From IMG/VR virus record IMGVR_UViG_3300025133_000113, positions 1 through 59,874 of that record: 59,874 nt of DNA, one strand, 5' to 3'. Source of the DNA: a virus. Below the pieces are notes generated by a model. That model was not told where the DNA came from. It was given only the letters and a program-made list of their open reading frames with translations, and did no database searches. Made by a program: the position numbers and the translations under genes. Positions 16,048 to 58,776 of the stretch are shown here, in pieces. Each line of letters opens with the position of its first letter. Position 1 is the first letter of the stretch.

Positions 16048-18528
16048 TTATTTTTTAACGTAAACCTTACCTTCTTTCTTATCGAAGGAAATGTTCACCG
16101 TATCACCTTCTTTGACGTTCTTCAATAGAATCTCATCAGCAATTAGGTCACCAACATGGACTTGTATCGCTCTAGCCAACGGTCTGGCACCATATTCATC
16201 ATGGTAACCTTCATCAGCTAGGAACTCAATAGCACCTTTATCTAATTTGATATCATATCCTTTGTCAATCAATCTAGCTTTCAATGCCGCCAGTTCGATA
16301 TGGATAATCTTATGTATATCAGCTACCTTCAATTGGTTGAAGATGATGCAATCGTCAATACGGTTAAGGAATTCAGGAGCAAACTTCTTCTTAAGTGCTT
16401 TCTCAATGATACCTCTATGCTTTGCATCCTTGTTCGCCAAGGTATGTGTGGTCTTAAATCCTAATCCGTCACCAAATGCGCTCAATTGCTTCACACCCAC
16501 GTTGGATGTTAGTACGATAAGACAGTTCTTGAAGTCTACTTTTCTACCCAGACCATCAGTCAACTGACCTTCATCCAGTAATTGTAGTAGGATGTTGAAT
16601 ACGTCAGGGTGCGCTTTCTCAATCTCATCGAATAAGATAACAGAGTAAGGCTTTCTACGGACTTTCTCGGTCAATTGACCACCTTGTTCGTACCCTACAT
16701 AACCTGGAGGGGCACCTACTAATCGTGATACTGTATACTTCTCCATGTACTCACTCATATCCATTCTAATCATGGCATCTGAGTCACCAAACATTTGTAT
16801 TGCGAGTTGCTTTGCCAGTTCAGTTTTACCAACACCAGTAGGACCCAAGAATATGAAGGAACCGATTGGTTTGCTCTCGTCCTTGATTCCAAGTCTGTTA
16901 CGTTTGATTGCTTTGGTCACCTTATCGATGGCATCATCTTGCCCAATAATTGCTTTCTTAAGCACTTTGTGCATACCCACCAATCGTTTGTTCTCTTGGC
17001 TTGATACTTTACTTACAGGAATACCAGTCATATTGGCTACAACCTCACATATTTCTTCCACACCGACTTTGGTTCGCTTCTCATCCAGAGATTTCTCCCA
17101 TTCTTCGCTTGCTTTGGCTAGTTCCTTCTCAATCTTAACACCTTCATCTCTCAGCTTTGCCGCTTCCTCATAACGTGATTGATTAACCACTATTTCCTTT
17201 TCACGGTCTACTTTGTTTCTAGCTTCTTCCAGACCTTTAATGCGTTCTGGTTTAACTTGGGTTAGGTTTGTGGCTGCACCAGCCTCATCCATAACGTCAA
17301 TAGCCTTATCAGGCATCGCTCGGTCACTTATATATCTGTCAGACATCTTAACACATTCTTCAATGGCTTCGTCCGTATAAAGAACCTTGTGATGTTCTTC
17401 GTATTTACCTTTAATGTTGCTTAGAATCGTGGTTGTTTCTTCCAAGGTTGGTTCTTCAACCAGTACTTGTTGGAATCTACGTGTTAATGCCCCATCTTTT
17501 TCGATATTCTCTCTGAATTCGTCAAGTGTGGTGGCACCAATAATCTGTAGTTCACCGTTAGCTAATGCAGGTTTGAAGATATTAGATGCATCCAACGCTC
17601 CTGTTGCATTACCAGCACCCACCATTGTGTGTAACTCGTCAATAAACAGGATGACATTAGGTGATAACTTCAATTCATCCATTATAGTCTTAATACGTTC
17701 TTCGAATTGACCTCTATATTTAGTTCCAGCTACTAGAGATGCAAGGTTAAGAGAATATATCTTCTTATCTTTTATTACCCTTGGGGCTTTATTCTTTTGA
17801 ATTAATAAGGCTAACCCTTCAATGATAGATGTCTTACCAACTCCTGGTTCCCCAATAAGAACTGGGTTATTTTTTTTACGTCTGGATAGAATCATGGATA
17901 CCCGTTTGATTTCCTTTTCTCTACCCACCACAGGGTCTACTTCACCCTTCTTAACCGCTTCAGATATGTCTCTACAATATTTATCTAATTCTGGTGTATG
18001 ATTTTGCCCTTTAGTTAGTGTCCCTGTTCTCTTAGGGCGCTTTGGTCTTCTGCTGCCAGTGTCTTCATAATCTTCTTCACTCTCATCATATCTGCTCATT
18101 ATTATAATAGCTTCTTTATATTCATTGTAATTAACACCAAACTTATTCATTGTTTTGGTGATATCATCTGTTCGTTTCAATATTGCTAGGAATAGGTGAG
18201 CCGTATCTATGGTGGTTTCACCTAGGTTCACTGACTCTGCTTCTAATTTTTTAAATACGCTTTGTACCGCATTGGAATACCCTATCGATTTGGTCTCATA
18301 GGGTCTTGGTGTAAGGTCATTTGTGTATACTATCTCGTATAGAGTATCATAAAGTTTGCTGGTATCGACCTTCATGTGGTCTAATACACTTATTGCTCTA
18401 TTATCTCCATCCAATAATGTACTAAGTATGATGTGACCTAATTGCACATCATACCCATTGTGTTCCTTAACACCTCTTTTAGCATCCGTAAGGATTGCCT
18501 TTAATTTAGGTTCAACCTCTCTATCCAT
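16048..18528 (-). CDS. clpC: ClpC-type AAA+ unfoldase
   Basis: 826 residues, full length for ClpC. Order: Clp N-domain (1-145), D1 AAA+ with Walker A GEPGVGKT (226-233) and Walker B ILFIDE (293-298), middle region with UVR-type motif SRYEEAAKLRDEG (451-463), D2 AAA+ with Walker A GPTGVGKT (562-569) and Walker B ILFDEIEKAH (631-640), and a C-terminal D2-small domain. GDGLGF at 686-691 sits where ClpC has its VGF loop that docks on ClpP, so it may drive host ClpP. No clpP is in this window. Expected cytoplasmic. It has its own host-type promoter and terminator. A host origin by transfer is likely. Confidence 0.93.
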   Translation of the reverse strand: MDREVEPKLKAILTDAKRGVKEHNGYDVQLGHIILSTLLDGDNRAISVLDHMKVDTSKLYDTLYEIVYTNDLTPRPYETKSIGYSNAVQSVFKKLEAESVNLGETTIDTAHLFLAILKRTDDITKTMNKFGVNYNEYKEAIIIMSRYDESEEDYEDTGSRRPKRPKRTGTLTKGQNHTPELDKYCRDISEAVKKGEVDPVVGREKEIKRVSMILSRRKKNNPVLIGEPGVGKTSIIEGLALLIQKNKAPRVIKDKKIYSLNLASLVAGTKYRGQFEERIKTIMDELKLSPNVILFIDELHTMVGAGNATGALDASNIFKPALANGELQIIGATTLDEFRENIEKDGALTRRFQQVLVEEPTLEETTTILSNIKGKYEEHHKVLYTDEAIEECVKMSDRYISDRAMPDKAIDVMDEAGAATNLTQVKPERIKGLEEARNKVDREKEIVVNQSRYEEAAKLRDEGVKIEKELAKASEEWEKSLDEKRTKVGVEEICEVVANMTGIPVSKVSSQENKRLVGMHKVLKKAIIGQDDAIDKVTKAIKRNRLGIKDESKPIGSFIFLGPTGVGKTELAKQLAIQMFGDSDAMIRMDMSEYMEKYTVSRLVGAPPGYVGYEQGGQLTEKVRRKPYSVILFDEIEKAHPDVFNILLQLLDEGQLTDGLGRKVDFKNCLIVLTSNVGVKQLSAFGDGLGFKTTHTLANKDAKHRGIIEKALKKKFAPEFLNRIDDCIIFNQLKVADIHKIIHIELAALKARLIDKGYDIKLDKGAIEFLADEGYHDEYGARPLARAIQVHVGDLIADEILLKNVKEGDTVNISFDKKEGKVYVKK

Positions 18529-18551
18529 AGTTCCTATTTTTCTAGCTGAAA

Positions 18552-18582
18552 CAAATATACTTCATAATAAATGAAAAATCAA
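18552..18582 (-). promoter_or_regulatory. Bacteroidetes-type promoter of clp
   Basis: Minus strand: TTG (18582-18580), 20 bases, TATATTTG (18559-18552), then a 23-base leader to the ATG at 18528. Its TTG box is one base away from that of the divergent promoter, as CAAcTTG. Confidence 0.75.
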
Positions 18583-18583
18583 C

Positions 18584-18614
18584 TTGTTATTCTTAAATAA
18601 ATATCGTATATTTG
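18584..18614 (+). promoter_or_regulatory. Bacteroidetes-type promoter of the KTSC gene
   Basis: TTG 18584-18586, 20 bases, TATATTTG 18607-18614, followed by a 61-base leader to ATG 18676. Back-to-back with the clp promoter. Confidence 0.75.
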
Positions 18615-18675
18615 AGTTAAACTGACTAACGATTAGGTCGGTTACATCTTAAAACAAGTAAAAACATACAAAAAT

Positions 18676-19119
18676 ATGCTATTAGAAAAGAAAGAAATTA
18701 ACGGAAAAACTAAAGCGCTTTACGAATCAAGTAACGTTTTAGCATCAACTTACTGTCCAATGTCAAATGTGTTGCAGGTTATCTTCAAGAACGGTACCAG
18801 ATACGCCTATAAGGATGTGAGAGCAACCGATTACATGAGATTTGAGACTGCTGACAGTCAAGGTAAGGTATTAAATGCCAACATTAAACCCAACTATGAA
18901 GTTGAAAAGCTGGAAGGTGTTGATGCTGCCGTAGTTATTGCGGCTGTAGATAAAGCTAAGACTGCTGGTGAGACTTCATTATTCACTGAGTGTGCTGATA
19001 GATTAGCTCTTGGTTTAGAGAAGTTTGAGGGTAAATATGACCTTAAGTTTGTACTTACGGTTAGAAAAATAGCGCAGCAAACATTAGATGCTGTTGGATA
19101 CGAAGAAGAAACCAAATGA
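18676..19119 (+). CDS. KTSC-domain protein
   Basis: 147 residues. Residues 25-78 match the KTSC domain: LQVIFKNGTRYAYKDV, then YMRFETADSQGKVLNANIK (the domain's GxxYxYxxVp ... f..A.S.Gk.fn..Ik pattern). KTSC domains are thought to bind nucleic acids or occur beside RNA- and DNA-processing proteins; here the function is not known. The C-terminal half is helical. Its stop overlaps the next start (ATGA). Confidence 0.75.
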   Translation: MLLEKKEINGKTKALYESSNVLASTYCPMSNVLQVIFKNGTRYAYKDVRATDYMRFETADSQGKVLNANIKPNYEVEKLEGVDAAVVIAAVDKAKTAGETSLFTECADRLALGLEKFEGKYDLKFVLTVRKIAQQTLDAVGYEEETK

Positions 19120-19493
19120 GCAACGAGAAAATAGAGTTAGACGAGTTTATTAAACTCGCAATAAAGAATTGGGGTGAGGATACTCCGACACTAGACGAAC
19201 GCTTTGATAGTCGTTGGCGGTTAAGATTCGTGATGGATTTATGTGAAATAGATTTTGATGAAGAGTTCGGTGAGGATTTCCCTTACGAATTTGTTGATGA
19301 TAAAGAAGTCATTGGACATAAGAATAGTTACATCAACTTCACCGTTATTAAGCGTAAGAGTGATGGTAAATATTTTCAGATTCATACTAGAAGTGGTAGT
19401 TATGGGACTGATATGAGCGATGATTCGTTTACTGAAACTAAAAAGGTGGTGGTGGAACCACGTTGGGAGTTTCAAGATTGGAATATGGACTAA
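19116..19493 (+). CDS. Hypothetical acidic protein
   Basis: 125 residues, acidic, coupled to the KTSC gene by ATGA and to the next gene by TAATG. No motif recognised. Confidence 0.65.
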   Translation: MSNEKIELDEFIKLAIKNWGEDTPTLDERFDSRWRLRFVMDLCEIDFDEEFGEDFPYEFVDDKEVIGHKNSYINFTVIKRKSDGKYFQIHTRSGSYGTDMSDDSFTETKKVVVEPRWEFQDWNMD

Positions 19494-20014
19494 TGTTCAA
19501 TGAAGGTTACTTAAATAAACGAGAGAGTGGTTGGACAGTTAAATGGTCTGACCTACACTCTTTTGCTCAGGGGAGACATTGGAACGAAACACCTTTACAT
19601 CCAGAGCAACAACCAGATTGGGTATTCCCAGAGACCATCCCACTTGACGACACTTTGGTAGTGGAGTTTGAACACGTAACTGATGGGTACGATGCTGATA
19701 ACTTCACACCTTGGAAGTACGCTAGAATTAAAACACCAACAACAGAAATGGAGAAAATATACAACCAAATTAAGAGTGAATGTGAATTACCAGTAGCGGT
19801 ATTCACATATTCTCACAGAGATTTTGAGGGGGCGATTCATCCGTTCAATAGTATTCATGTAAACCTTAGAGGTGAAGATGATGAGAATAATATTGACCAA
19901 ATGATGACTATTAAGAAGAAGTATGGAGAGTTCTTCATGTTCTTCAATGCTAGTGATGAAGGTAAGAAGTTCTGGGCGAATAACCCAATAACGATTAACC
20001 CAACAACAGAATGA
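19493..20014 (+). CDS. Hypothetical protein
   Basis: 173 residues from ATG 19493, which overlaps the upstream TAA (TAATG); a start at 19463 would overlap the upstream gene by 31 bases. Aromatic and acidic, no signal peptide. Stop overlaps the next start (ATGA). Not recognised. Confidence 0.65.
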   Translation: MFNEGYLNKRESGWTVKWSDLHSFAQGRHWNETPLHPEQQPDWVFPETIPLDDTLVVEFEHVTDGYDADNFTPWKYARIKTPTTEMEKIYNQIKSECELPVAVFTYSHRDFEGAIHPFNSIHVNLRGEDDENNIDQMMTIKKKYGEFFMFFNASDEGKKFWANNPITINPTTE

Positions 20015-20427
20015 TAGAAAATTACTTTGATAAACAGTTTAAGACCTTACTGGGGGCTAAGATAGCGGTGTTCCTTAAGAGGATATACGATTGGCATATG
20101 TACACCAGAGAGGGTTGTAAGATTTTAGTCATGCGGTATCACATTTACAAATGGTTGGAGAATCCTGACCGATATGTGATACACGGTAGGGTTCATTGTG
20201 ATGTTCCCAGATTCCCATACATACCACCAACCCTAAACCTAGAAACGGGGCAAATAGACCTTAGATTCAACCAATTGGCTAATGACCAAGATTTCTATTT
20301 TGGTATACCAGACAATTCACATCTAACTGATGGTCAGAGAGAAGCTGACTGCAACGGTGCGCTCAAGGAAATACAAGATAGGTACTACCCCGTTACAGCT
20401 AACATTACTTGGAATGAAGTCGAGTAA
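20011..20427 (+). CDS. Small protein carrying a portal-derived segment
   Basis: 138 residues. Residues 78-95 (ETGQIDLRFNQLANDQDF) are nearly identical to the portal segment NTGQVDLRYNQLANDQDF encoded near 31093-31143. The DNA also matches closely (46 of 53 bases across 20242-20294 by hand alignment), so this is homology, not convergence. The rest (N-terminal helical part, C-terminal tail) does not clearly match the portal. Coupled by ATGA to the gene before and overlapping the next by 14 bases. It may be a remnant or a repurposed portal piece. Confidence 0.65.
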   Translation: MIENYFDKQFKTLLGAKIAVFLKRIYDWHMYTREGCKILVMRYHIYKWLENPDRYVIHGRVHCDVPRFPYIPPTLNLETGQIDLRFNQLANDQDFYFGIPDNSHLTDGQREADCNGALKEIQDRYYPVTANITWNEVE

Positions 20428-20575
20428 AAAGGTTGAACTAATAGATTTAAGTAAGGTTCCAACCTTTAGAGAAATGTATATATTCTGGGATACACCAGAG
20501 GAAATGCACCAATGGGCTAGGAAAAAACTAATGGTACCAAGAAAATATTTAGGATATGACGAAAAGAAAAGATAG
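20414..20575 (+). CDS. 53-residue protein with a second portal-like segment
   Basis: Start ATG 20414, 53 codons. Its end, LMVPRKYLGYDE (39-50), resembles the portal's LRVPKSFLGFEE (372-383), and the preceding helix resembles the portal's IEYLQRKLFTA. In the portal these two segments lie about 45 residues apart and in the same order as in these two neighbouring genes. It overlaps both neighbours. Likely linked in origin to the gene at 20011. Confidence 0.55.
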   Translation: MKSSKKVELIDLSKVPTFREMYIFWDTPEEMHQWARKKLMVPRKYLGYDEKKR

Positions 20576-20837
20576 AGAGTGGGAAAAGACCTTTGAAGAA
20601 TACTGTAAGGAATTTGGATATGAGGAAAAATTAACATTAGTGCCGACCACAAGGTCATTCGCTGAGTTGATATACCACCATTCCGTATACGTTAACAGCC
20701 AAAAGAACCTTAGTTGGAGAAGAGGAATACTGCGAATTGAGAAGATATTGGATAAGTACGCTGAACTTAAACGGACTGAGATGTTGGATAAGTACGCTGA
20801 AGTTATGCAATTGGAACAGAAACGAAATAATAAGTAA
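20556..20837 (+). CDS. Hypothetical helical protein
   Basis: 93 residues, very charged. The C-terminus repeats LDKYAEL / LDKYAEV, encoded by a short duplicated stretch near 20750 and 20785. No family recognised. Overlaps the previous gene by 20 bases. Confidence 0.55.
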   Translation: MTKRKDREWEKTFEEYCKEFGYEEKLTLVPTTRSFAELIYHHSVYVNSQKNLSWRRGILRIEKILDKYAELKRTEMLDKYAEVMQLEQKRNNK

Positions 20838-20850
20838 AAACCAATAGAAA

Positions 20851-21213
20851 ATGGAAGAATTAAACGGTAGAGCAGAAATGGAAATGCGTGAGGCTAGTCG
20901 AAAGATGGTAGCTGATATGAAAGTTAAACGAGAAGCTGAAGAAGCTAAAGAAGCTGAAGAAGCTGATAAGGTTTTGGTTAGTTTAGATGGTAATCCTCAT
21001 GATACCCTTAGATTTGGTATCGCAACGTATCGAGGTGAAGGTGACCCAGTATTAGCGATTGATATGGCTTTGGCTAAGTATAATGCGGCTAGTATACGTA
21101 ATGATGAAGGACCAATTACTGAATTCATAGATACCAGCATGGATAACCCATGGGTGCGTGTATTCACTGTTGGTGACCTAACTCAAGTTCACGCAAACTA
21201 TCATGAGTCATAA
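20851..21213 (+). CDS. Hypothetical protein with N-terminal coiled coil
   Basis: 120 residues. Residues 1-40 form a Glu/Ala/Lys coiled coil (EEAKEAEEADK); residues 45-115 are a mixed globular part. A-rich leader before the ATG. Not recognised. Confidence 0.65.
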   Translation: MEELNGRAEMEMREASRKMVADMKVKREAEEAKEAEEADKVLVSLDGNPHDTLRFGIATYRGEGDPVLAIDMALAKYNAASIRNDEGPITEFIDTSMDNPWVRVFTVGDLTQVHANYHES

Positions 21214-21234
21214 TTATTAAACAAACAAAATAAA

Positions 21235-21516
21235 ATGACTAAATTAAGTACTGAGGAAGGAGAGAATGGTAAGGAGCGAGTATTCGTTAGTCCTCGTGTT
21301 TACACGGTTGACCCGCCTGAGTTCTACGTAGACCGTAGGTTGCATGCCATATGGTTTGCATTAACAGCGTGGGACGATACGGTAACCTACTATGATTTGT
21401 ATCGAGATGAACCAAACGATAGGAGTTTGGTGGTGGGTATGAAATATGCTGAATTAGAAAGATTATACGACAGCCTATACAATTACGATGGGTCAACAAA
21501 AAAGAAAGATACCTAA
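21235..21516 (+). CDS. Hypothetical protein
   Basis: 93 residues, soluble, with aromatic residues in the middle (WFALTAWDDTVTYYDLY). Its TAA overlaps the thymidylate synthase ATG (TAATG). Not recognised. Confidence 0.6.
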   Translation: MTKLSTEEGENGKERVFVSPRVYTVDPPEFYVDRRLHAIWFALTAWDDTVTYYDLYRDEPNDRSLVVGMKYAELERLYDSLYNYDGSTKKKDT

Positions 21517-22664
21517 TGAACAACCTAGATAAACAATATCAAGCCTTACTCCAAGACATCTTGGATAATGGGCACGACAAAGGGGATAGAACTGGTACTG
21601 GTACCAAGTCAGTATTCCCACGAATGATTACACATAACATGGCTGAGGGTTTCCCTCTGCTGACCACCAAGAAGATGTACCATAAGGGTATCTTCACTGA
21701 GCTATTATGGCTCCTACGTGGTGATACCAATATCCAATGGTTATGTCAGAATGATTGTAATATATGGGTTGGTGATGCTTATAAGAGTTACCTATCTAAA
21801 ACAATGTTTAGTTCGGATAATGGTGCTCTTGAGGAATTAGACGGAATGGATTTGGGGACTGGTGAGTTAAAGAAGGTGTATAAACAACACACAAAAGAAG
21901 GTTTCATTGAACGTATTAAAACCGATGACGAGTTTGCTGAAGAATGGGGAGACCTAGGTCCTATCTACGGAAAGCAATGGAGAAATTGGGAGCCACCCGC
22001 TTGGAATATCAAGAATGGTGGGATTGACCAAATAGCAAATGCGCTTAACGACTTAACCAATAATCCTGATAGTAGGAGAATCATGGTTAATGCGTGGAAC
22101 GTGGGAGAAGTATCACATATGACATTACCTCCATGCCACTTCGGGTTCCAATTGTGGACAAGAGAGTTGAGTTCATTTGAACGAGAGGAACACTTTGCTT
22201 ACAAAATGAATAATATGACCCACCAAGAACGATGTGAATTGCATCCAAATCACCGTGAGGAAGATGTACATGAGAAGATGGATGAGGAAGGTGTACCTAG
22301 ACGAGCAATATCGTTAACATGGCAACAACGAAGTGTTGATACCTTCCTTGGTTTACCGTTTAACATTGCGTCTTACGGAGCTTTGTTGATGATATTTGGT
22401 GAACTGGTCAATATGGTACCAGAAACGCTTACAGGTGTTCTAGGAGATACCCACCTATACAACAATCACTTAGAACAAGCCAAAGAACAGATTGGTAATG
22501 AACCTTTCGACTTACCTAACCTTAGAATCAGTACAGAATTCTGGAACCCAGAGAATGTGCTTGGTACTAACTGGGATGAAATAATCAAAGGTATTGAGTT
22601 GGAAGACTTCCAATTGGAAGATTACGTGTCTCACGAGACGATTAAAGCACCATTAAGTAATTAA
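21516..22664 (+). CDS. thyA: Thymidylate synthase (ThyA)
   Basis: 382 residues, longer than the 264-residue E. coli enzyme. DRTGTGT (24-30) is the phosphate loop, ELLWLLRGDTNI (62-73) and DLGPIYGKQWR (146-156) are family motifs, Cys207 in LPPCHFGFQ is the catalytic nucleophile, and SVDTFLGLPFNIASY (273-287) carries Asn283, the residue that selects dUMP over dCMP. Extra length comes from insertions at about 95-145 and 218-262. It makes dTMP from dUMP and methylene-tetrahydrofolate in the cytoplasm. Asn283 argues against a dCMP hydroxymethylase. Coupled to its neighbour by TAATG. Confidence 0.95.
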   Translation: MNNLDKQYQALLQDILDNGHDKGDRTGTGTKSVFPRMITHNMAEGFPLLTTKKMYHKGIFTELLWLLRGDTNIQWLCQNDCNIWVGDAYKSYLSKTMFSSDNGALEELDGMDLGTGELKKVYKQHTKEGFIERIKTDDEFAEEWGDLGPIYGKQWRNWEPPAWNIKNGGIDQIANALNDLTNNPDSRRIMVNAWNVGEVSHMTLPPCHFGFQLWTRELSSFEREEHFAYKMNNMTHQERCELHPNHREEDVHEKMDEEGVPRRAISLTWQQRSVDTFLGLPFNIASYGALLMIFGELVNMVPETLTGVLGDTHLYNNHLEQAKEQIGNEPFDLPNLRISTEFWNPENVLGTNWDEIIKGIELEDFQLEDYVSHETIKAPLSN

Positions 22665-22667
22665 CAT

Positions 22668-22949
22668 ATGAACTATACAAGACCAAACGACCCAGATTAC
22701 GAAGATAACGCCAATGATTGGCTTAACTCAGCACTAATATTCGCTAGCGCCCTAGGGCACATATTACGTGAAGAAGAAGGTGTGATAGTGGATATCAAGA
22801 ATGATATGATAGATACCCTACCAGAAGAATTCGAAGGTTATGAAAAACTTATAGTGTTCAGGGCTGCTGGACAAATCCATATCCAAGGGTTTGATGAGGA
22901 TGCACCAGAAGGTACTATGGTGATGATGTGGCAAGATAATCCAAACTAA
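22668..22949 (+). CDS. Hypothetical protein
   Basis: 93 residues, acidic, starts three bases after thyA. No motif recognised. Confidence 0.6.
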   Translation: MNYTRPNDPDYEDNANDWLNSALIFASALGHILREEEGVIVDIKNDMIDTLPEEFEGYEKLIVFRAAGQIHIQGFDEDAPEGTMVMMWQDNPN

Positions 22950-22977
22950 TATGTCTTTACAAATAATGCTTCTAACC

Positions 22978-22988
22978 TATATTTATAG
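22978..22988 (+). promoter_or_regulatory. Candidate phage late promoter
   Basis: TATATTTATAG, 14 bases before the tail-tube ATG. Good match to the late motif. Confidence 0.55.
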
Positions 22989-23002
22989 GAAAGAGTTTTA
23001 TT

Positions 23003-28052: not shown

Positions 28053-29876
28053 ATGTTAACAGCAGCCGAAATATTAGAAGAATACACGCAGTGTCTATTA
28101 GACCCGAAGTATGTCATTTCAACATACTTCAAAACTTTTGATAAGACACAAGAAGGGTTTGTACCGTTCGACCTATTCCCCAAACAAAGAGATATCGTTG
28201 ATGACTATAGAAAGCATCGATTCAATCTAGTAGCCAAGCCTAGACAGGCTGGTATATCCACTACAACACAAGCATATGCAGCCACCCTTGTCGGGTTTGC
28301 TGACGATAAGAATCCAGAGTGTATCGTGGTTGTCGCTAACAAACTGAAGTTAGCTAAGAAATTCACTAAAGGTATAAAGAACTTTGTTAATCAACTTCCA
28401 AGATGGGTGTGGGGTGACGAATATTACGGCACAAAAGAGAAGGAAGAAAAAGACATCTTCGTAACGGAGAATCAAGAAGAGATGGAACTGGTCAATGGTT
28501 GTTTAATCGTGGCTGTTGCGACATCTGAGGATGCTTTGCGTGGTTACACGCCTACACTACTTATCATGGATGAGGCTGCGTTCATCGAAAGGGGTGATGA
28601 ACTATTTGCTGCTGCCCTTACCTCACTTGGTACTGGTGGAAAGGCAACTCTTATTTCAACACCTAAAGGACAAGACCCACTATACTACGAGACTTACGAC
28701 CAAGCTAAGAAAGGTGAGAACGACTTCAATGTAATTGAGATGCGTTGGTATGAGGATTTGCGATATAATAAAGACCTCAGATGGTACAAATACTTAGATG
28801 ATGAAGAACTTGAAAAAGAGTGGTTAGAAGAATACGAATTCACCTTCGAATCATACGATAAAAAACTAAGGGCTGGCTATAAACCTACATCTTCATGGTA
28901 TGAGGAAATGTGTAGAGCGATGAATAACGATAAGCGTAGGATAGCTCAAGAGCTTGATGTATCATTCCTTGGTTCAGGTGGTAACGTAATTGATGATAAA
29001 TACATTAATCACCACGAATTGCACAACGTGTGTGAACCTAAGTGGAAAGCTGGTAAAGGTAACGAGATTTGGATATGGGAGAAACCCGTTGAGGGTCACG
29101 AATATATTCTAGCTTCAGACGTATCCAGAGGTGATGGGGAAGACTCATCTACATTCACCATCATAGATGTTACAACCATGGAGCAAGTGGTTGAATACAT
29201 AGGTAAACTACCACCAGATAAGTTAGCCGACATCCTATGGGAATATGGTATATTATATAACGCATTATTAGTAGTGGATATTACAGGTGGTATGGGTGTC
29301 ACGACAACTTTGAAGTTGAAGGAGATGAAATACCCTCACTTATATTACGAGCGAAGAGGTGATAAACTATTGAAACCTAGGAAGGAAGATAATAAGTATA
29401 AACCTAAGATTGAAACTCCTGGTTATCAGGTAGGTTCAGACAGGGTTGCTTTGGTTAGTAATCTTGAGAGGATGGTACGATTGAATTGTGATGAAGGTAT
29501 CAATAAAGGTATCAAGGTTCGGTCAAGCAGAACGATTAGCGAATTCCACACATTCATATACAAGAACGGACGTGCTGACCACCAAGAGGGTAAGCATGAT
29601 GACCTTATAATGGCATTGGGTATGGCGTTATTCATATTGGAGTTCTCCTTCAGTAAGTTAAAGTCATTGAAGACAAAGACAAAGACAATGCTTAATAGTT
29701 GGATAGTCAATAGTAGTGATACGATAGAACCACACTTAGAAAGTGGTAGTGGGTTTGTTGATAAAGCCAACAGGCGTAAGAAGGCTCAACCTAAACCTAA
29801 ATTTGATGCTACGACAGCTAGAAATATGCAAGACCCTTCGGGTCAATATTTATGGTTGTTCAGTGGCACTAAGTAA
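28053..29876 (+). CDS. Terminase large subunit (gp17-like)
   Basis: 607 residues, close to T4 gp17 (610). ATPase domain: Walker A variant KPRQAGIST (62-70), Walker B LLIMDEAAF (169-177) and coupling motif LISTPKG (200-206). Nuclease domain: first Asp in ASDVSRGDGED (about 350-360), second in LVVDITGG, and HDDLIMALGMALF near 520. It would translocate DNA into the prohead through the portal and cut the concatemer. It lies upstream of the portal gene, and late-type promoter upstream. Confidence 0.95.
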   Translation: MLTAAEILEEYTQCLLDPKYVISTYFKTFDKTQEGFVPFDLFPKQRDIVDDYRKHRFNLVAKPRQAGISTTTQAYAATLVGFADDKNPECIVVVANKLKLAKKFTKGIKNFVNQLPRWVWGDEYYGTKEKEEKDIFVTENQEEMELVNGCLIVAVATSEDALRGYTPTLLIMDEAAFIERGDELFAAALTSLGTGGKATLISTPKGQDPLYYETYDQAKKGENDFNVIEMRWYEDLRYNKDLRWYKYLDDEELEKEWLEEYEFTFESYDKKLRAGYKPTSSWYEEMCRAMNNDKRRIAQELDVSFLGSGGNVIDDKYINHHELHNVCEPKWKAGKGNEIWIWEKPVEGHEYILASDVSRGDGEDSSTFTIIDVTTMEQVVEYIGKLPPDKLADILWEYGILYNALLVVDITGGMGVTTTLKLKEMKYPHLYYERRGDKLLKPRKEDNKYKPKIETPGYQVGSDRVALVSNLERMVRLNCDEGINKGIKVRSSRTISEFHTFIYKNGRADHQEGKHDDLIMALGMALFILEFSFSKLKSLKTKTKTMLNSWIVNSSDTIEPHLESGSGFVDKANRRKKAQPKPKFDATTARNMQDPSGQYLWLFSGTK

Positions 29877-30147: not shown

Positions 30148-32265
30148 ATGGCTGACAAGAAAAAAGATTTAACAATATTTCAAAAGTTGAATAGGATTTT
30201 AACTCCTGATGGAATTAATCCCAACTTAGAACTGAGTAATAAGTATTCACTAGGGAGCGATGTCCTATTGAAGACTGACAATAAGCAAGAATACGAGCAG
30301 CAAAAGCTACAAGCGAAGCAAAGTAAGTATTTAAGTAACATGTGGGGTAAGGTTGAGGACAACCTATTCCAACAAGCCATACAGTATGAGATGACCAGAA
30401 TCGGGGCTTACTCCGATTTTGAGAACATGGAATTCTACCCAGAACTTGCAGCCACCCTTGATATCATGATGGAGGAATCTACCACCGTAAATGATAAAGG
30501 TAGGGTACTTAATATCTATTCAGATAGTCCACGTATTAGAGGTATTCTGGAAGACCTATTTTTCAATAGATTGGATATACATACCGTATTACCTATGTGG
30601 GTGCGTAACACTTGCAAGTATGGTGATAACTTCGTATATCTTAATACAAGTGACAAATATGGTATCACTGGTGCCAAGCAAATGCCTAACTTCGAAATGG
30701 AGAGGCGTGAGGGTGGTGTATACGACACTATTACAGCTAAATTGAATAGTACATCTGAAAATGGTAAAGATAGGTCAGGTGAGAGCAAAGAAGAACGTGT
30801 ACGTTTCTTTTGGAGAGGTCGAGACTTAGAGTTTGAGTCATGGCAAGTAGCCCACTTCAGATTACTTGGTGATGACAGGCGATTACCTTATGGTACGAGC
30901 GTGTTAGAGAAGTCTAGAAGGATTTGGAAACAACTATTGTTATCTGAGGATGCAATGCTTGTATATCGTGTTACACGAGCGCCAGAGCGTAGAGTGTTCA
31001 AGATTTATGTTGGTAACATAGATGATGAGGATGTACAACCATACGTAAACGAGATTGCCAATCGATTTAAGAGAGCTAACGTAATTGACCCTAACACTGG
31101 GCAAGTAGACCTTAGATACAACCAATTGGCGAATGACCAAGACTTTTTCATCCCAGTAAGAGATGAAAATGCTCCTACCCCAATCGACACACTTCAGGGT
31201 GCTAGTAACCTAGACCAGATTGCGGATATCGAGTATCTACAACGTAAGTTATTTACTGCATTGAGGGTACCTAAGTCTTTCTTAGGATTTGAAGAGTCTC
31301 AGGGTGAGGGTAAGAACTTAGCATTGATGGATGTAAGGTTTGCTAGAACAATTAATAGAATACAACAAGCACTATTACAAGAGCTTAATAAGATTGCCAT
31401 AATACACTTGGTGTTACTAGGTTTTGAGGATGACTTGAACAGCTTCACCATTACAATGAATAACCCATCTACACAAGCAGAGATGCTTAGGATAGAGCAC
31501 TTACAGGCTAAGTTTACAGCTATACAAGCTGCTGTTGCCGATGCTGGTAATGGGTTTGGAATTATGTCAATGACAAAAGCCAAGAGAGATATACTTGGAT
31601 GGAGTGATGCTGAGATTAAGCAAGACCTTCTTGAACAACGTATGGAGAAAGCGGCTGCTGCTGAATTGGAGAATACTTCCAATGTCATTAAGAACACAGG
31701 CTTCTTCGATAAGGTTGATAAACTATACGGTGACATTGAAGTCGCCAGAGGTGGTGGTGCGGCTGAAGAAGGTGGTGAAGATGGAGGTCCTACTGGTGGT
31801 GGAGGTGGTGGCTTCGGTGGTGGTGGTATCGGTGGTGACGATATAGACTTTGGAGACGAAGAAGGTGGAGACGAAGAAGGTGGAGACTTCGGAGATGATG
31901 CTGGTGGAGAAGGATTTGGTGATGATGCTGATGCTGGTGGAGATGACTTAGGTGGTGATGATGCTGGTGGTGATGATGCCGCAGCAGAACCTGCTGGCGA
32001 ATTAGGTGAGATGCTTAAGATTGGTCAAAGAATCTTATCTGAGGAAAAACTGATATTGGTAGACAAGTTAACCAAGAGAAAGATGCGTCACAAGGAAATC
32101 CACATGAACAGGTTAATGGAGAGTATCACCAAAAGTGATATGGACGATGCTGTTAATGAAAACAGGATTAGTCTAACTGACAAAGGTATGCGTATAAACC
32201 AAAATGTTGATGATATGTTGAAAGATATTAACGACAGAATTGAGGAAGCGGATAGTGACGAATAA
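30148..32265 (+). CDS. Portal vertex protein (gp20-like)
   Basis: 705 residues; T4 gp20 has about 520. Core features: MEFYPELAATLDIMMEES (early), WVRNTCKYGDNFVYL, NTGQVDLRYNQLANDQDFFIPV (315-337, the counterpart of T4's MTMLEDYWLP region), DTLQGASNL, and LRVPKSFLGFEESQGEGKN (372-390). After residue about 530 comes a very acidic Gly/Asp-rich stretch of some 80 residues, then a helical tail. It would form the dodecameric portal. It ends in a terminator. Confidence 0.92.
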   Translation: MADKKKDLTIFQKLNRILTPDGINPNLELSNKYSLGSDVLLKTDNKQEYEQQKLQAKQSKYLSNMWGKVEDNLFQQAIQYEMTRIGAYSDFENMEFYPELAATLDIMMEESTTVNDKGRVLNIYSDSPRIRGILEDLFFNRLDIHTVLPMWVRNTCKYGDNFVYLNTSDKYGITGAKQMPNFEMERREGGVYDTITAKLNSTSENGKDRSGESKEERVRFFWRGRDLEFESWQVAHFRLLGDDRRLPYGTSVLEKSRRIWKQLLLSEDAMLVYRVTRAPERRVFKIYVGNIDDEDVQPYVNEIANRFKRANVIDPNTGQVDLRYNQLANDQDFFIPVRDENAPTPIDTLQGASNLDQIADIEYLQRKLFTALRVPKSFLGFEESQGEGKNLALMDVRFARTINRIQQALLQELNKIAIIHLVLLGFEDDLNSFTITMNNPSTQAEMLRIEHLQAKFTAIQAAVADAGNGFGIMSMTKAKRDILGWSDAEIKQDLLEQRMEKAAAAELENTSNVIKNTGFFDKVDKLYGDIEVARGGGAAEEGGEDGGPTGGGGGGFGGGGIGGDDIDFGDEEGGDEEGGDFGDDAGGEGFGDDADAGGDDLGGDDAGGDDAAAEPAGELGEMLKIGQRILSEEKLILVDKLTKRKMRHKEIHMNRLMESITKSDMDDAVNENRISLTDKGMRINQNVDDMLKDINDRIEEADSDE

Positions 32266-53599: not shown

Positions 53600-54531
53600 A
53601 TTGGTAATTGTTCTTTAAGTATGCTCTGGAATGTCTTTGATAGTCCAGCATATAAGTTGGTAGCCTCAAAGTGTGGTAACACCGTTAGGAGCTTCTTAAT
53701 AGATACATCTTTCCTGTATTGACCATCTGGCTTCTTAGGGTCGAATGTGAAGTTAGTTACACTTGTCTTAGTTAACATCTTAAAAACCTCTAAAGCGATA
53801 TCAGCGATTTCAGCGATTGAATAATTTTCTTTGGTTGCTACATTAAAACTAGTTCTAATATCTCTATCGACCAACCACTTAATAACTTCAGCTAAGTCGC
53901 CAGCATACATAAATTGTCGCAATGGTTCCCCAGTTCCGAATAATTTCACTTCATGTTCACCGCTATTATGAGCCGAAATAATCTTCTTCACCAACGCAGC
54001 AACAAAGTGGCTATTCTTACCCCACTTGTCATGTTCACCGTATAGGTTACATGGTGTTAGGTATTGATACTTGGTGCCGAATTGTTCGTTACACGCATCA
54101 ATATGAACTGCCAGACATCTCTTAGCGTAACCATATGAAAAGTTGGTCTTCGTTGGTGCACCCATGTGTAGCATATCCTCAGTCATTGGGTACTTATGTA
54201 CCAAGTCGGGATAGATGCACGTTGATAACATGCCAATAAATTGGTCAACACCATGAAGTCTAGATAGGTTGACCATATTGGTATTCATTAGGATGTTATC
54301 TTCGAAATAATCACAAGGTCGATTAATATTATCAATGATGCCACCAACCCTAGCAGCTAAATGTATTACCACATCAGGCTTGTGAGTTAAGAATAACAGG
54401 TTAGTCTCTGAGTAGCTTGTTAAATCACAATCTGCGCTGTTTACATAAACGGCTTTAGGTAACATTTCCTGTAGGTGTTTACCTACCATGCCACGACCAC
54501 CTGTGACTAATATTTTACGTTGTTTCTTCAT
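53596..54531 (-). CDS. GDP-fucose synthase/ColC-like epimerase-reductase
   Basis: 311 residues from ATG 54531 (an upstream ATG at 54555 would enlarge the overlap). SDR with KILVTGGRGMVGKHL, LAARVGGI, MLSTCIYPD, YGYAKRCLAVH and NLYGEHDKWG, the layout of GDP-L-fucose synthase and of ColC. It would epimerise and reduce a GDP-4-keto-deoxyhexose. Next to a ColD-like enzyme, a ColC role (GDP-L-colitose) is more likely than plain fucose synthesis. ATGA-type overlap with the ColD-like gene. Confidence 0.85.
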   Translation of the reverse strand: MKKQRKILVTGGRGMVGKHLQEMLPKAVYVNSADCDLTSYSETNLLFLTHKPDVVIHLAARVGGIIDNINRPCDYFEDNILMNTNMVNLSRLHGVDQFIGMLSTCIYPDLVHKYPMTEDMLHMGAPTKTNFSYGYAKRCLAVHIDACNEQFGTKYQYLTPCNLYGEHDKWGKNSHFVAALVKKIISAHNSGEHEVKLFGTGEPLRQFMYAGDLAEVIKWLVDRDIRTSFNVATKENYSIAEIADIALEVFKMLTKTSVTNFTFDPKKPDGQYRKDVSIKKLLTVLPHFEATNLYAGLSKTFQSILKEQLPI

Positions 54532-55138
54532 GTAATACTCTATTATATAGTTCAATGTCTTCCTTATACATCTCCCTCACCATCTTGTTTATATCAGGAA
54601 CCGTCTGAAGGATTCTAACAATATGATTTTTCCCTTCTCCAAATATACCCATTTTTTTATTAAGATGCAATAACTTTCTATTAATACTGTAATCTTTACA
54701 CATATCATTGAATTCTTGCTCAAGGTTATCAAATAATAACATCCTATCGATTCTGAAATCGTTACCATCTTTATCAGATAGGAATGCAACTTGTGGTGCT
54801 GTGTGAACGTCTATGAACCCTTTACCTAAGAAAGTTCTAACCCTATCTATTGGGTTCTTAATCTTCTTTAGGTCTTTAAGTTCTTGTACCGTTTCATGCC
54901 TGATTAGTGTTTCTATGATACCAGCAGCAATTCTGGTTACAGGTTCTCTAATTATCGTGAATACTTTGTAATCAGATTTATCTTTTGGTAATTTAGATAT
55001 GTTGGTATGATATGGACTAATACGGAAAGTCTCCCTGATGCTGGTAGATGCAGTTTTAGGTATCCCCAAAAATACTATCTTATCTTCATCGGAAACCCAA
55101 CATAACCCTTTATGGTCTATTATCTCTTTTGAGTACAT
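54515..55138 (-). CDS. Sulfotransferase-fold protein
   Basis: 207 residues. IVFLGIPKTASTSIRETF (20-37) is the PAPS 5'-phosphosulfate loop and FTIIREPVTRIAAGIIE (59-75) the 3'-phosphate-binding segment. HTAPQVAFL (about 112-120) is shared with the next gene upstream, showing a tandem duplication. Likely transfers sulfate to a sugar hydroxyl; acceptor unknown. Confidence 0.75.
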   Translation of the reverse strand: MYSKEIIDHKGLCWVSDEDKIVFLGIPKTASTSIRETFRISPYHTNISKLPKDKSDYKVFTIIREPVTRIAAGIIETLIRHETVQELKDLKKIKNPIDRVRTFLGKGFIDVHTAPQVAFLSDKDGNDFRIDRMLLFDNLEQEFNDMCKDYSINRKLLHLNKKMGIFGEGKNHIVRILQTVPDINKMVREMYKEDIELYNRVLHEETT

Positions 55139-55775
55139 TTAATAACGTTTTTCCATATAAAACCCAATCTTCGTGATATAACATTTCAACTCGTTTTCTT
55201 ATTGCTTGGTTGGTGTTTACGATGTCTATGAGTCTATCCCGTCTGGCTTTGATAGTGCCCACATTCACATTCCTGTGACCCAACTCTACCTTTATCCCAT
55301 GTTTCTGGCAGAACAATTTAAAATCTACATCTAAATTCTCAAAAATCAATAGTTCATCTAAATCAAATAATTTACCTTCTCTATTAATTAGGAATGCAAC
55401 TTGTGGTGCCGTATGTGGCTCAAAAAAGCCTTTTTCTAGTACATTCAGAAACCCAGTCAGTAACTCTATGTCAGATTTTCTTCGTAATTCTTTAAGGTTT
55501 GATGGTGCAGTACTACCGAGACATTCTATAAGTCCACTAACAAATCTTTCGTTAGGGTTTCTAATTATAGCGAATTTTTTATACCCTCTTAAGCCATTTT
55601 TGGTGTTCAGATTTACCCTAGGGGTCTTACTTGTGGTACCAAAAGCATGTCTAATGCTGGATGAGGCATTTTTCGGTACTTGTAGAAACATAATTTTCTG
55701 TGGTTTAAATACCCAAGCTCTACCATTACGATATGCTATATTATTAATATATTTAGTCGCCTTTTTTTTCTTCAT
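55110..55775 (-). CDS. Sulfotransferase-fold protein (paralogue of 54515)
   Basis: 221 residues. IMFLQVPKNASSSIRHAF and FAIIRNPNERFVSGLIE give the same two PAPS-binding motifs, and HTAPQVAFLI is shared with its downstream neighbour. Very basic N-terminus. Overlaps both neighbours. Sulfate acceptor unknown. Confidence 0.75.
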   Translation of the reverse strand: MKKKKATKYINNIAYRNGRAWVFKPQKIMFLQVPKNASSSIRHAFGTTSKTPRVNLNTKNGLRGYKKFAIIRNPNERFVSGLIECLGSTAPSNLKELRRKSDIELLTGFLNVLEKGFFEPHTAPQVAFLINREGKLFDLDELLIFENLDVDFKLFCQKHGIKVELGHRNVNVGTIKARRDRLIDIVNTNQAIRKRVEMLYHEDWVLYGKTLLNVLKRDNRP

Positions 55776-56436
55776 ATCTAATTAGATATTTCTCAAATAA
55801 ATCACCACACTTATTCCTTAAAAATTTATCCCAAGATGACTTCAACCCCTTAGTTAATTTATTCGAATGGTGGATAACGTTTTTCCCTTTGGTTATTGAT
55901 GGTCGATATAGAGTTAATGATTTCTTTTTATGTCCATCTAATTTATTGACGAACTCGTCAATGTTATCCACCCCCTCACCTAGGAATTCAGCAATCTTCC
56001 GTAATTCACACTCAACATCTGTGATGAAATCTTCATAATAAACCAATAACTTCTCACCTTTAAAGTCATCGAAATAACGTATCACATCCACGTAATTACG
56101 AGAGGTCTTATTTGAGGAACAACTTCTTTGCAAAGTAGCCAATGTGATTTTAGTACCCTCATGGTGTCTAACAATCACCTCCTTGTAATTCCGAATAACC
56201 AGAATTAGTTTATCCACCCTTTTAGTACTAAAGGTTTCGTGTCGTTTTAATAATATGGGGTCAACTTTTAAGTCTACACCCAAAGTTGGAATATTACTAC
56301 CAATCGGGTTCTCTAATGGGGCTTTAGATTTAGTGTAGCCGTAAGTTGGTTTCTTGGTTATCGCTTCAACGCAATACCTAATCCAACTATTACCACTTCT
56401 TGGGTAACTCAATAGTATGTTCCCTTCCTTATGCAT
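55753..56436 (-). CDS. Sulfotransferase family 1-like
   Basis: 227 residues from ATG 56436 (56457 possible). NILLSYPRSGNSWIRYCVE carries the SYPRSGxxW 5'-PSB motif and LILVIRNYKEVIVRHH the 3'-PB segment; LLVYYEDFITD follows as in Sulfotransfer_1 proteins. A different subfamily from its two neighbours. Acceptor unknown. Confidence 0.75.
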   Translation of the reverse strand: MHKEGNILLSYPRSGNSWIRYCVEAITKKPTYGYTKSKAPLENPIGSNIPTLGVDLKVDPILLKRHETFSTKRVDKLILVIRNYKEVIVRHHEGTKITLATLQRSCSSNKTSRNYVDVIRYFDDFKGEKLLVYYEDFITDVECELRKIAEFLGEGVDNIDEFVNKLDGHKKKSLTLYRPSITKGKNVIHHSNKLTKGLKSSWDKFLRNKCGDLFEKYLIRYEEKKGD

Positions 56437-56731
56437 CAAAGAAATAGTCGTTATCATTTATTCCTTTATCGTCAATATAATAATCTGCGTATATCTTAAT
56501 ACCCGTCCTCAACTTATGGAACTTCAACCCCCAATCAGTTAGCTGGTCTTGGGTATGTCCGAACCAGTTAATACCTGATATGGAACCTCTGGCTGTATCG
56601 ATGATTATATGGTGACCCTCATCGTATAGTTTATTCACTACCTCAATCCGTTTCATATCGGGGACTGAACTCTCATATTCCCCATCGATTGTCTCACATA
56701 GGGTGTCGTCTAAATCAAAGCAATATATCAT
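56429..56731 (-). CDS. Small HAD-family phosphatase (capsule/sugar type)
   Basis: 100 residues. IYCFDLDDTLCET has the intact HAD motif I; IIDTARGSISG (motif II-like Thr) and YADYYIDDKG (motif IV) follow. Similar short HADs occur in capsule and polysaccharide loci. Substrate unknown, perhaps a sugar phosphate. ATGA overlap with the methyltransferase gene. Confidence 0.75.
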   Translation of the reverse strand: MIYCFDLDDTLCETIDGEYESSVPDMKRIEVVNKLYDEGHHIIIDTARGSISGINWFGHTQDQLTDWGLKFHKLRTGIKIYADYYIDDKGINDNDYFFDA

Positions 56732-57345
56732 TTCTTAATATCGTATTCTAGGTACCTATAACCATTGGTTTTATGTGCTATCTTACTCTCCATCAGGGTA
56801 TAATTCGTTAATCGTTCATTCAAGTAAGTTGCTGGTAACATACAGCCGTAATACACCTTAGAACCGTCTTTAAGGTCACCTAACATCTTAAGTGTGTCGT
56901 GGTGTCGTATCTGCAAGTATAATTCCTCACACTTGCTGTTATTCACCTTATCTAAGAACTCATCCAAATACTCCTTGGTTACGAAATGTTGGATACAGGC
57001 GAAGCAACAGAAGATATCAGCTTCAAATTGGTCGAAGGAATCTGGTACCAAATGGAATTCAGTATTATGATACTTCTCCAATCGCTTCTTAGCATTATTA
57101 AGTGAGCGTTCCGATATATCGATACCGATGTATTTAGCGTTAGCTATCTGTAGTACCATATCACCAAAATAACCACCACCAACACCATAGTCAATTATCG
57201 TCTTACCATCAACCCTTTTCCCCATTCTGGGCATCACATATTGCTCAAATCGGCTCATTAATTTATTCTCATTCTCAGTGCTGATATTGAGTTGAACCAA
57301 TCCAGTGTCACACTTCTCCCAGAAATCCTTTAATTCATCGCCCAT
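56728..57345 (-). CDS. SAM-dependent methyltransferase
   Basis: 205 residues. IIDYGVGGGYFGDMVLQ (49-65) is motif I and YIGIDISERSLNNAKKRLE motif II of class I methyltransferases; FDQFEADIFCCFACIQHF fits motif IV. It probably methylates a sugar or lipid-linked glycan of this pathway. Coupled at both ends. Confidence 0.8.
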   Translation of the reverse strand: MGDELKDFWEKCDTGLVQLNISTENENKLMSRFEQYVMPRMGKRVDGKTIIDYGVGGGYFGDMVLQIANAKYIGIDISERSLNNAKKRLEKYHNTEFHLVPDSFDQFEADIFCCFACIQHFVTKEYLDEFLDKVNNSKCEELYLQIRHHDTLKMLGDLKDGSKVYYGCMLPATYLNERLTNYTLMESKIAHKTNGYRYLEYDIKK

Positions 57346-58196
57346 TATCCTCTTAGTTTTTTCAATGCTGGTAATTCACTCTTTAATATCTCCTTATCAA
57401 AAGAACCCATAGCCGTGTGAATTTGCCTTATGTATTTAGTTATCAACTTAACCCCGTCAACTTCCAAAGAACCTTTATGGTCGGTACCCCTCATATTTCT
57501 ATCCAAGGTGAAATGTCGCTCAATTATATTGGCACCCATAACGTAAGCTGCAAGGTCTGGTGAAATACTCATATGGTGACCACTCAATCCGAACGCTTTA
57601 ATCTTACCAGCATATCGTTCTTGATATGTTTTTAGTACGTTAAGGTTGATATCCCTATCCTCACATGGATACGAACTAGTGCACTGCATCAAATATTTGT
57701 CATTATCTTTGAATATATTATTCACCGCTTCATCCACATCCCCTATGGTGCACATACCTGTGGATATAATAATTGGTTTACCTGTTTTAGCCGCAGCTTC
57801 CAATAGTGGAATGTCAGCCATCCTTTGTGAAGCAATCTTGAGGAATTTTAAATCACAATCATTAACTAAAAACTCCAAACTGGGTATATCAGTAAAACTG
57901 GAGGTGAAATCAAATCCCCTACTCTTCACATACTCTTCTAATTCGAGAAATTCATCCTTACTTAGCTCTAACGCTTTTCGATGCTCATAGTAGGTATCTC
58001 CGAACGAATTTTCATTAATATATGGCATACCCTTTTGTGTCTCACTCAAACAGGTATCAATATCTCGTTTAGCCGTCTTGATACAGGAAACACCAGTACC
58101 AACCAGAGCGTCCACCATCTTCTTGGCTATGTTAATGTCACCTTGATGGTTCTGACCAATCTCAGCTATAAAGTACGGTTCGTTAGGGTTAATCAT
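57345..58196 (-). CDS. neuB: Nonulosonic acid synthase (NeuB-like, no SAF domain)
   Basis: 283 residues from ATG 58196, which gives an 8-base overlap; an ATG at 58232 gives 44. PYFIAEIGQNHQGDINIAKK, FDFTSSFTDIPSLEFL, FLKIASQRMADIPLL, PIIISTGMCTIGDVDEAV, LMQCTSSYPC and GLSGHHMSIS follow the NeuB TIM barrel in order; ERHFTLDRNMRGTDHKGSLE closes it. The C-terminal antifreeze-like (SAF) domain found in NeuB and PseI is missing. It should condense phosphoenolpyruvate with an N-acyl aminosugar. Confidence 0.88.
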   Translation of the reverse strand: MINPNEPYFIAEIGQNHQGDINIAKKMVDALVGTGVSCIKTAKRDIDTCLSETQKGMPYINENSFGDTYYEHRKALELSKDEFLELEEYVKSRGFDFTSSFTDIPSLEFLVNDCDLKFLKIASQRMADIPLLEAAAKTGKPIIISTGMCTIGDVDEAVNNIFKDNDKYLMQCTSSYPCEDRDINLNVLKTYQERYAGKIKAFGLSGHHMSISPDLAAYVMGANIIERHFTLDRNMRGTDHKGSLEVDGVKLITKYIRQIHTAMGSFDKEILKSELPALKKLRG

Positions 58197-58776
58197 CAAA
58201 TGTGTAGTTAAAGTAGTTGATATCACGTTCATGCATTCTGGCTACCAATGCTTCGGTGGTATCATTGTAATGTTCTTGATAAGCTGAATGTTTGCTGGTG
58301 TTCAATTTAGGTAGGTCAATGGTAATCCCAAGTTCTTCTGCCACTTCAGCAATCCCCTCTTCCAGATTCTCAAACCTGATTACCTTATCTACTAGTAAAT
58401 TAACGTCATCAGATTTATGCATATACATTCTTTTTCCGTTATGCCATTGCCATCGAGGTCCTGCAATCCAATCCAATTGGTTACCCACTTGGTTAATGTG
58501 TCCATGTCTAAGATATTGACCAAACCCCATATTGATGTGTTTACCATCCTTACGTTGTTGTTGGTAATGCCATTCAGATACCATTCGTTCCCATGGGTTT
58601 CTCACCACAGCAAACTTGAAGTACTCGTTGAAATCCTTATCACTCATCATCCGTCTATAGTCGAAGATGTTACGATGAGGGTTACCATTATCGTTAGCTC
58701 CCAGCGCTTTGCTTATGCTGCTACCAGCAGTTTTAGTGATGTGTACGAATACGCATTTATTGTTTTTGTGTATCAT
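58189..58776 (-). CDS. Sulfotransferase family 2-like
   Basis: 195 residues. CVFVHITKTAGSSISKAL (8-25) and FKFAVVRNPWERMVSEWHY (52-70) are the two PAPS motifs of Sulfotransfer_2 enzymes, with RFENLEEGIAEVAEELGI near the end. Fourth sulfotransferase-fold gene in this operon. Acceptor unknown. Confidence 0.82.
   Translation of the reverse strand: MIHKNNKCVFVHITKTAGSSISKALGANDNGNPHRNIFDYRRMMSDKDFNEYFKFAVVRNPWERMVSEWHYQQQRKDGKHINMGFGQYLRHGHINQVGNQLDWIAGPRWQWHNGKRMYMHKSDDVNLLVDKVIRFENLEEGIAEVAEELGITIDLPKLNTSKHSAYQEHYNDTTEALVARMHERDINYFNYTFDD

Follow-up and report, generated by a model that had tools for sequence, protein, structure and literature searches.

A short piece of portal gene within an orphan gene of a T4-like phage

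Why does a small gene upstream of a phage portal gene encode a segment of the portal protein? The question arises in a viral sequence of 59,874 nt (IMG/VR record IMGVR_UViG_3300025133_000113, positions 1 to 59,874), referred to here in its entirety as the window. A first-pass annotation proposed that two adjacent small genes, p1 and p2, each carry a stretch matching the portal, and offered as explanations a decayed portal duplicate, a recombination scar or a portal-mimicking protein. The answer differs between the two genes, as chance resemblance is refuted for p1 and accepted for p2. We consider it probable that a short piece of portal gene was captured by illegitimate recombination into an accessory ORFan, that the resulting peptide is likely a passenger, and that the match in p2 is fortuitous. 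The features are collected in Table 1. Elsewhere, the window has a minus-strand family of three related genes (54518-58776, up to 36% identical) and two sets of close direct repeats (7006-7039/7117-7150, 34 bp identical; 6861-6913/6933-6985, 81% identical).

Table 1. Features of the p1 locus and the portal region (positions in the window)
Feature	Position	Strand	Basis or remark
KTSC-domain gene, conserved left anchor	18676-19119	+	PF13619, E 9.6e-15; synteny
g125, small gene, left border of variable block	19116-19493	+	shared with relatives: L151/L152 71%, L153 39% (over part)
p0, 173 aa, ATGA-coupled to p1	19493-20014	+	aa 4-79 homologous to ThyA insert of relatives
p1, 138-aa ORFan bearing portal fragment	20011-20427	+	
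Portal-gene fragment in p1, probably captured, encodes LETGQIDLRFNQLANDQDFY	20237-20298, core 20245-20294	+	blastn and abrupt ends
p2, 53-aa small gene, start ATG 20414	20414-20575	+	ortholog L153:617-766; null tests
p3, 93-aa ORFan overlapping p2	20556-20837	+	
g120 (20851-21213) and g93 (21235-21516), small genes	20851-21516	+	
thyA, conserved right anchor	21516-22664	+	homing elements or inserts break up the gene in relatives
Putative terminase-like gene	28053-29876		reading of sequence
T4-type portal gene, intact, 705 aa	30148-32265	+	Portal_T4, E 1.3e-74, 252 bits; phrog_213 portal
Portal segment matching p1 (aa ~314-334; gp20 clip domain by alignment)	31088-31149	+	blastn; phmmer to T4 gp20

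A portal segment inside p1

The peptide ETGQIDLRFNQLANDQDF is encoded within p1. The core of the corresponding DNA aligns without gaps to the portal gene of the window at 45 of 50 bases (31096-31145 against 20245-20294; blastn, E 1e-13), in good agreement with the 46 of 53 bases counted by hand in the first-pass annotation. The portal gene of the nearest relative, the L016 phage, whose portal is 83-86% identical to that of the window, matches the fragment at 51 of 58 bases (blastn). A simple binomial estimate puts the chance expectation of the match between p1 and portal at ~3e-13, and no other dispersed DNA repeat of the window is as strong. At the protein level, the core at residues 78-96 of p1 scores 43 bits against a portal profile, showing homology to portals at the level of a segment. 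Identity is ~90% inside ~55 bp and falls to background outside, so that the ends are abrupt. The DNA flanks of the fragment have no similarity to the portal gene, and the remainder of p1 on either side of it gives no signal against the portal profile (p ~0.08), bearing out the earlier remark that the flanking sequence does not match.

The peptide is specific to portals. A degenerate pattern for it, scanned across 2.9 million viral contigs, gave 56 matches, all of them in portals except for a copy of p1 in a contig of the same virus that is 99.97% identical. In 27 related contigs the only match to p1 is the portal itself, and a search of 18 contigs with the whole portal detected a further copy, separate from the portal gene, in the window alone. 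That p1 acquired its peptide by chance or convergence, as a common unrelated motif, is thus hardly credible given the DNA match (E 1e-13) and the occurrence of the peptide elsewhere only in portals, and the first-pass suggestion that relatives might show the segments as such a motif fails for p1.

Other than this stretch, p1 has little in common with known proteins. A match to the whole-protein portal profile (PF07230) was not found, nor was any other Pfam hit, a portal PHROG hit or a defence family in PADLOC, and searches of named phages and bacterial genomes gave no homologues. The parts of p1 that are not shared with the portal have relatives only in the 99.97% identical contig. Structured RNA was not found in an Rfam scan of 18500-23000. 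The frames are intact and coupled to their neighbours as first described: the stop of p0 and the start of p1 share ATGA, and p1 overlaps p2 by 14 nt and p2 overlaps p3 by 20 nt. The codon usage of p1 is the best among its six frames, and together with the tight coupling to p0 and p2 this indicates that p1 is probably translated. At 0.083, its codon score falls short of 0.20, the lowest value among 138-codon stretches of the established genes used for training; codon usage this weak resembles that of a young or foreign gene.

The location of the peptide within the portal raises the possibility of a function. In T4, the clip domain of gp20 (residues 279-358) is the site of attachment of the terminase gp17, the packaging ATPase, and the neck protein gp13 (PMC4493910), and phmmer aligns the p1 peptide to gp20 ~317-335, i.e. 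inside this domain. The peptide could therefore bind to terminase, to neck proteins or to subunits of the portal, thereby blocking packaging by competing phages or satellites or tuning portal assembly. We regard this as improbable, even though the peptide contains only residues found in natural portals and p1 is coupled to its neighbours. By alignment, the T4 terminase contacts N291, M292, R295 and K296 and the inner clip loop residues R338 and K342 all fall outside the copied stretch. Moreover, p1 is present in one virus only. The structure prediction called for in the first-pass annotation produced a single-sequence model of p1 of low confidence (pLDDT 50), which is uninformative. The in-frame reading was forced, since the other two forward frames across the fragment contain stops; with the portal frame as the sole open frame on the plus strand, reading of the portal peptide in p1 is no sign of function. 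Finally, the second claimed portal motif is a chance match (see below). The proposal of a portal-mimicking protein thus found no positive support, and its specific form, in which p1 would be a phage-encoded decoy built on the clip-domain peptide and keep the terminase or neck of related competitors or of satellites from docking properly, is decidedly improbable. Compared with the T4 gp20 portal (PDB 3JA7), the resemblance of p1 is confined to the clip domain, where the copied peptide aligns; p1 has no other portal sequence, and stem, wing and crown are absent.

Alternatively, the repeat might act at the level of DNA. The two copies have the same orientation and, at a distance of 10.85 kb, enclose thyA and the putative terminase-like gene, such that a 50-bp direct repeat flanking a terminase gene could promote unequal crossing-over and gene amplification. 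This may be likened to the short-homology amplifications in T4 Hp17 mutants that are reported in the title of a work cited in PMC9958956. However, the longest exact runs are just 12 bp, no relative has such a repeat and there is no population evidence, and we consider a role of this kind very unlikely.

The second stretch, in p2

The second stretch, LMVPRKYLGYDE in p2, does not hold up as a portal piece. It is identical to the portal DNA at 22 of 36 bases, and it scores 1.8-2.7 bits against a profile built from 90 distinct portal cores, where unrelated ORFs of the window reach 2.2, 2.1 and 2.0 bits and its score is equalled by 35 of 5000 shuffles. Upstream of g120, in the position corresponding to that of p2, the nearest relative encodes a p2 ortholog, MNKVEPISLELSDHMKQIIAMWGTEEERYRWMLEQCRVPRKYLGSNKNK. 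The ortholog retains VPRKYLG and not the remainder of the portal-like stretch; the counterpart of LMVPRKYLGYDE reads CRVPRKYLGSNKNK and has a lower profile score (0.4 bits). Since the two proteins are 39% identical along their length, p2 appears to constitute a small family of its own with a chance resemblance to the portal. Members of this family were not found in viral contigs other than that of the nearest relative, and p2 has neither a Pfam hit nor homology to a portal segment. We judge that the VPRKYLG stretch probably resembles the portal by chance and that p2 is an independent small gene. Of the profile check recommended for both proteins, the portal signal stands for the p1 core and fails for p2. 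As a pair, p1 and p2 do not recur in related phages, p2 having an ortholog only in the nearest relative and p1 a counterpart only in the near-identical contig.

This has consequences for the proposal of a decayed duplicate, according to which a larger copy of the portal gene degenerated and left p1 and p2 as its remains. The two stretches do stand in portal order, but the spacing between them is unlike that in the portal, the ~90% identity is confined to ~55 bp with background beyond, the flanks lack profile signal and the p2 ortholog is non-portal. Similarity that extends collinearly beyond one short stretch, as in a portal pseudogene, was not found in p1 and p2, and the portal gene of the window is itself intact. 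The negative flank profiles and the p2 ortholog largely rule out a duplicate spanning both genes, and we rate decay of a larger copy as most unlikely.

A variable interval between the KTSC gene and thyA

In relatives, the number of small genes between the KTSC gene and thyA varies from zero to several. The two anchors adjoin directly in L148 and L163. In L151 and L152 they are separated by a small gene and g125, with thyA following 15 nt on. The L016 phage has g125 and p2 counterparts separated by 3 nt; p0 and p1 are absent. A single gene (L153 770-1114) replaces g120 and g93 in the nearest relative; its first 20 aa match g120 and the remainder matches most of g93, revealing a fusion within the variable interval.

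Exchange also involves thyA. An in-frame insert in the ThyA of L148 (1006-2502) is homologous to residues 4-79 of p0 (37% identity, E 1e-13), and modules of the p0 type are also seen between the two ThyA halves in L143 (near 2788) and L129. One module thus appears, from sequence comparison, both as a loop inside ThyA and as the first part of a stand-alone small gene. The thyA of the nearest relative (L016 507-2025; L153 1256-3268) is interrupted by an ORF of 246 aa, and a GIY-YIG homing endonuclease with a zinc finger of the I-TevI type is encoded downstream of the interrupted gene in L016. A NUMOD-type protein adjoins thyA in L156, and the ThyA of L161 (188-2467, minus strand; 759 aa) contains an intein (Intein_splicing, E 1.4e-18; LAGLIDADG_3). 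The interval and thyA itself thus appear to have been visited by mobile elements in relatives. This is reminiscent of the exchange associated with homing endonucleases in the vicinity of essential genes of phages (Barth et al., 2023, PMC10448857), in that the thyA neighbourhood of the relatives has endonucleases, an intein and inserts. It differs in that an endonuclease was not identified next to p1 and that the portal inserts of relatives lie away from the copied stretch.

Large intein-like in-frame inserts are found in the portals of eight relatives (L144, L135, L111, L136, L004, L094, L131 and L005) at three positions (residues ~111, 165 and 252), two of the inserts being in L094. An intein or homing site was rejected as the source of the fragment breakpoints on the basis of these positions, which do not coincide with residues 316-334.

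Origin and meaning of the fragment

The preferred reading is that ~55-60 bp of a portal gene would have been joined into the interval between the KTSC gene and thyA by illegitimate recombination, with the portal gene as the source. No clear case of microhomology was identified at the fragment ends. The p1 ORF now crosses the fragment in the portal frame, and p1 is an accessory orphan gene of a T4-like phage, located in a hypervariable interval of gene accretion. A p1 ancestor devoid of the fragment was not seen among the searched relatives, and insertion into an old gene and assembly of a new gene both fit. The portal peptide in p1 would most likely be a passenger that has no portal-related role. 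A recombination scar is thus the best of the options first proposed as far as p1 is concerned; it does not apply to p2.

The donor may have been a related co-infecting phage, or the fragment may derive from an older copy of the phage's own portal gene. Over 17 codons, the fragment has 6 differences to the window portal and 6 to the L016 portal; between these two portals there are only 2. The differences of the fragment comprise 4 synonymous changes, I/V and F/Y, both of the latter being natural portal states; I and F at these positions occur in other portals of the clade. Thus, the fragment branches outside the pair formed by the window and L016 portals and inside the portal clade, although it is too short for a tree. 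This placement implies that the donor was another member of the clade that is absent from the data, or that capture predates the pair and the fragment was lost in L016. The peptide changes are all tolerated in portals, which would fit selection as well as recent capture.

Mosaicism of phage proteins provides a framework for the observation. In the survey of Smug et al. (2023, PMC10684548), the main text of which makes no mention of the portal, mosaic pairs are defined by a fragment of at least 50 aa and at least 30% identity that spans no more than half of either protein. The p1 case is similar in that the fragment is common to otherwise unrelated phage proteins and makes up less than half of each (22 of 138 aa in p1 and ~20 of 705 aa in the portal, 77% identity), and in that high identity points to recent exchange. 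It is different in that the fragment, at 17-22 aa, is shorter than the survey minimum and in that the partner is an ORFan.

In conclusion, the fragment in p1 is genuine and best read as a recombination scar, small and confined to one phage. It illustrates cleanly that a minute portion of a structural gene essential to the phage can be read as part of an ORFan, at a length under the limit set in one large published survey of mosaicism. It is a small curiosity of gene mosaicism with no shown consequence for phage biology, and it suggests how scraps gathered at insertion hot spots may give rise to some phage ORFans.
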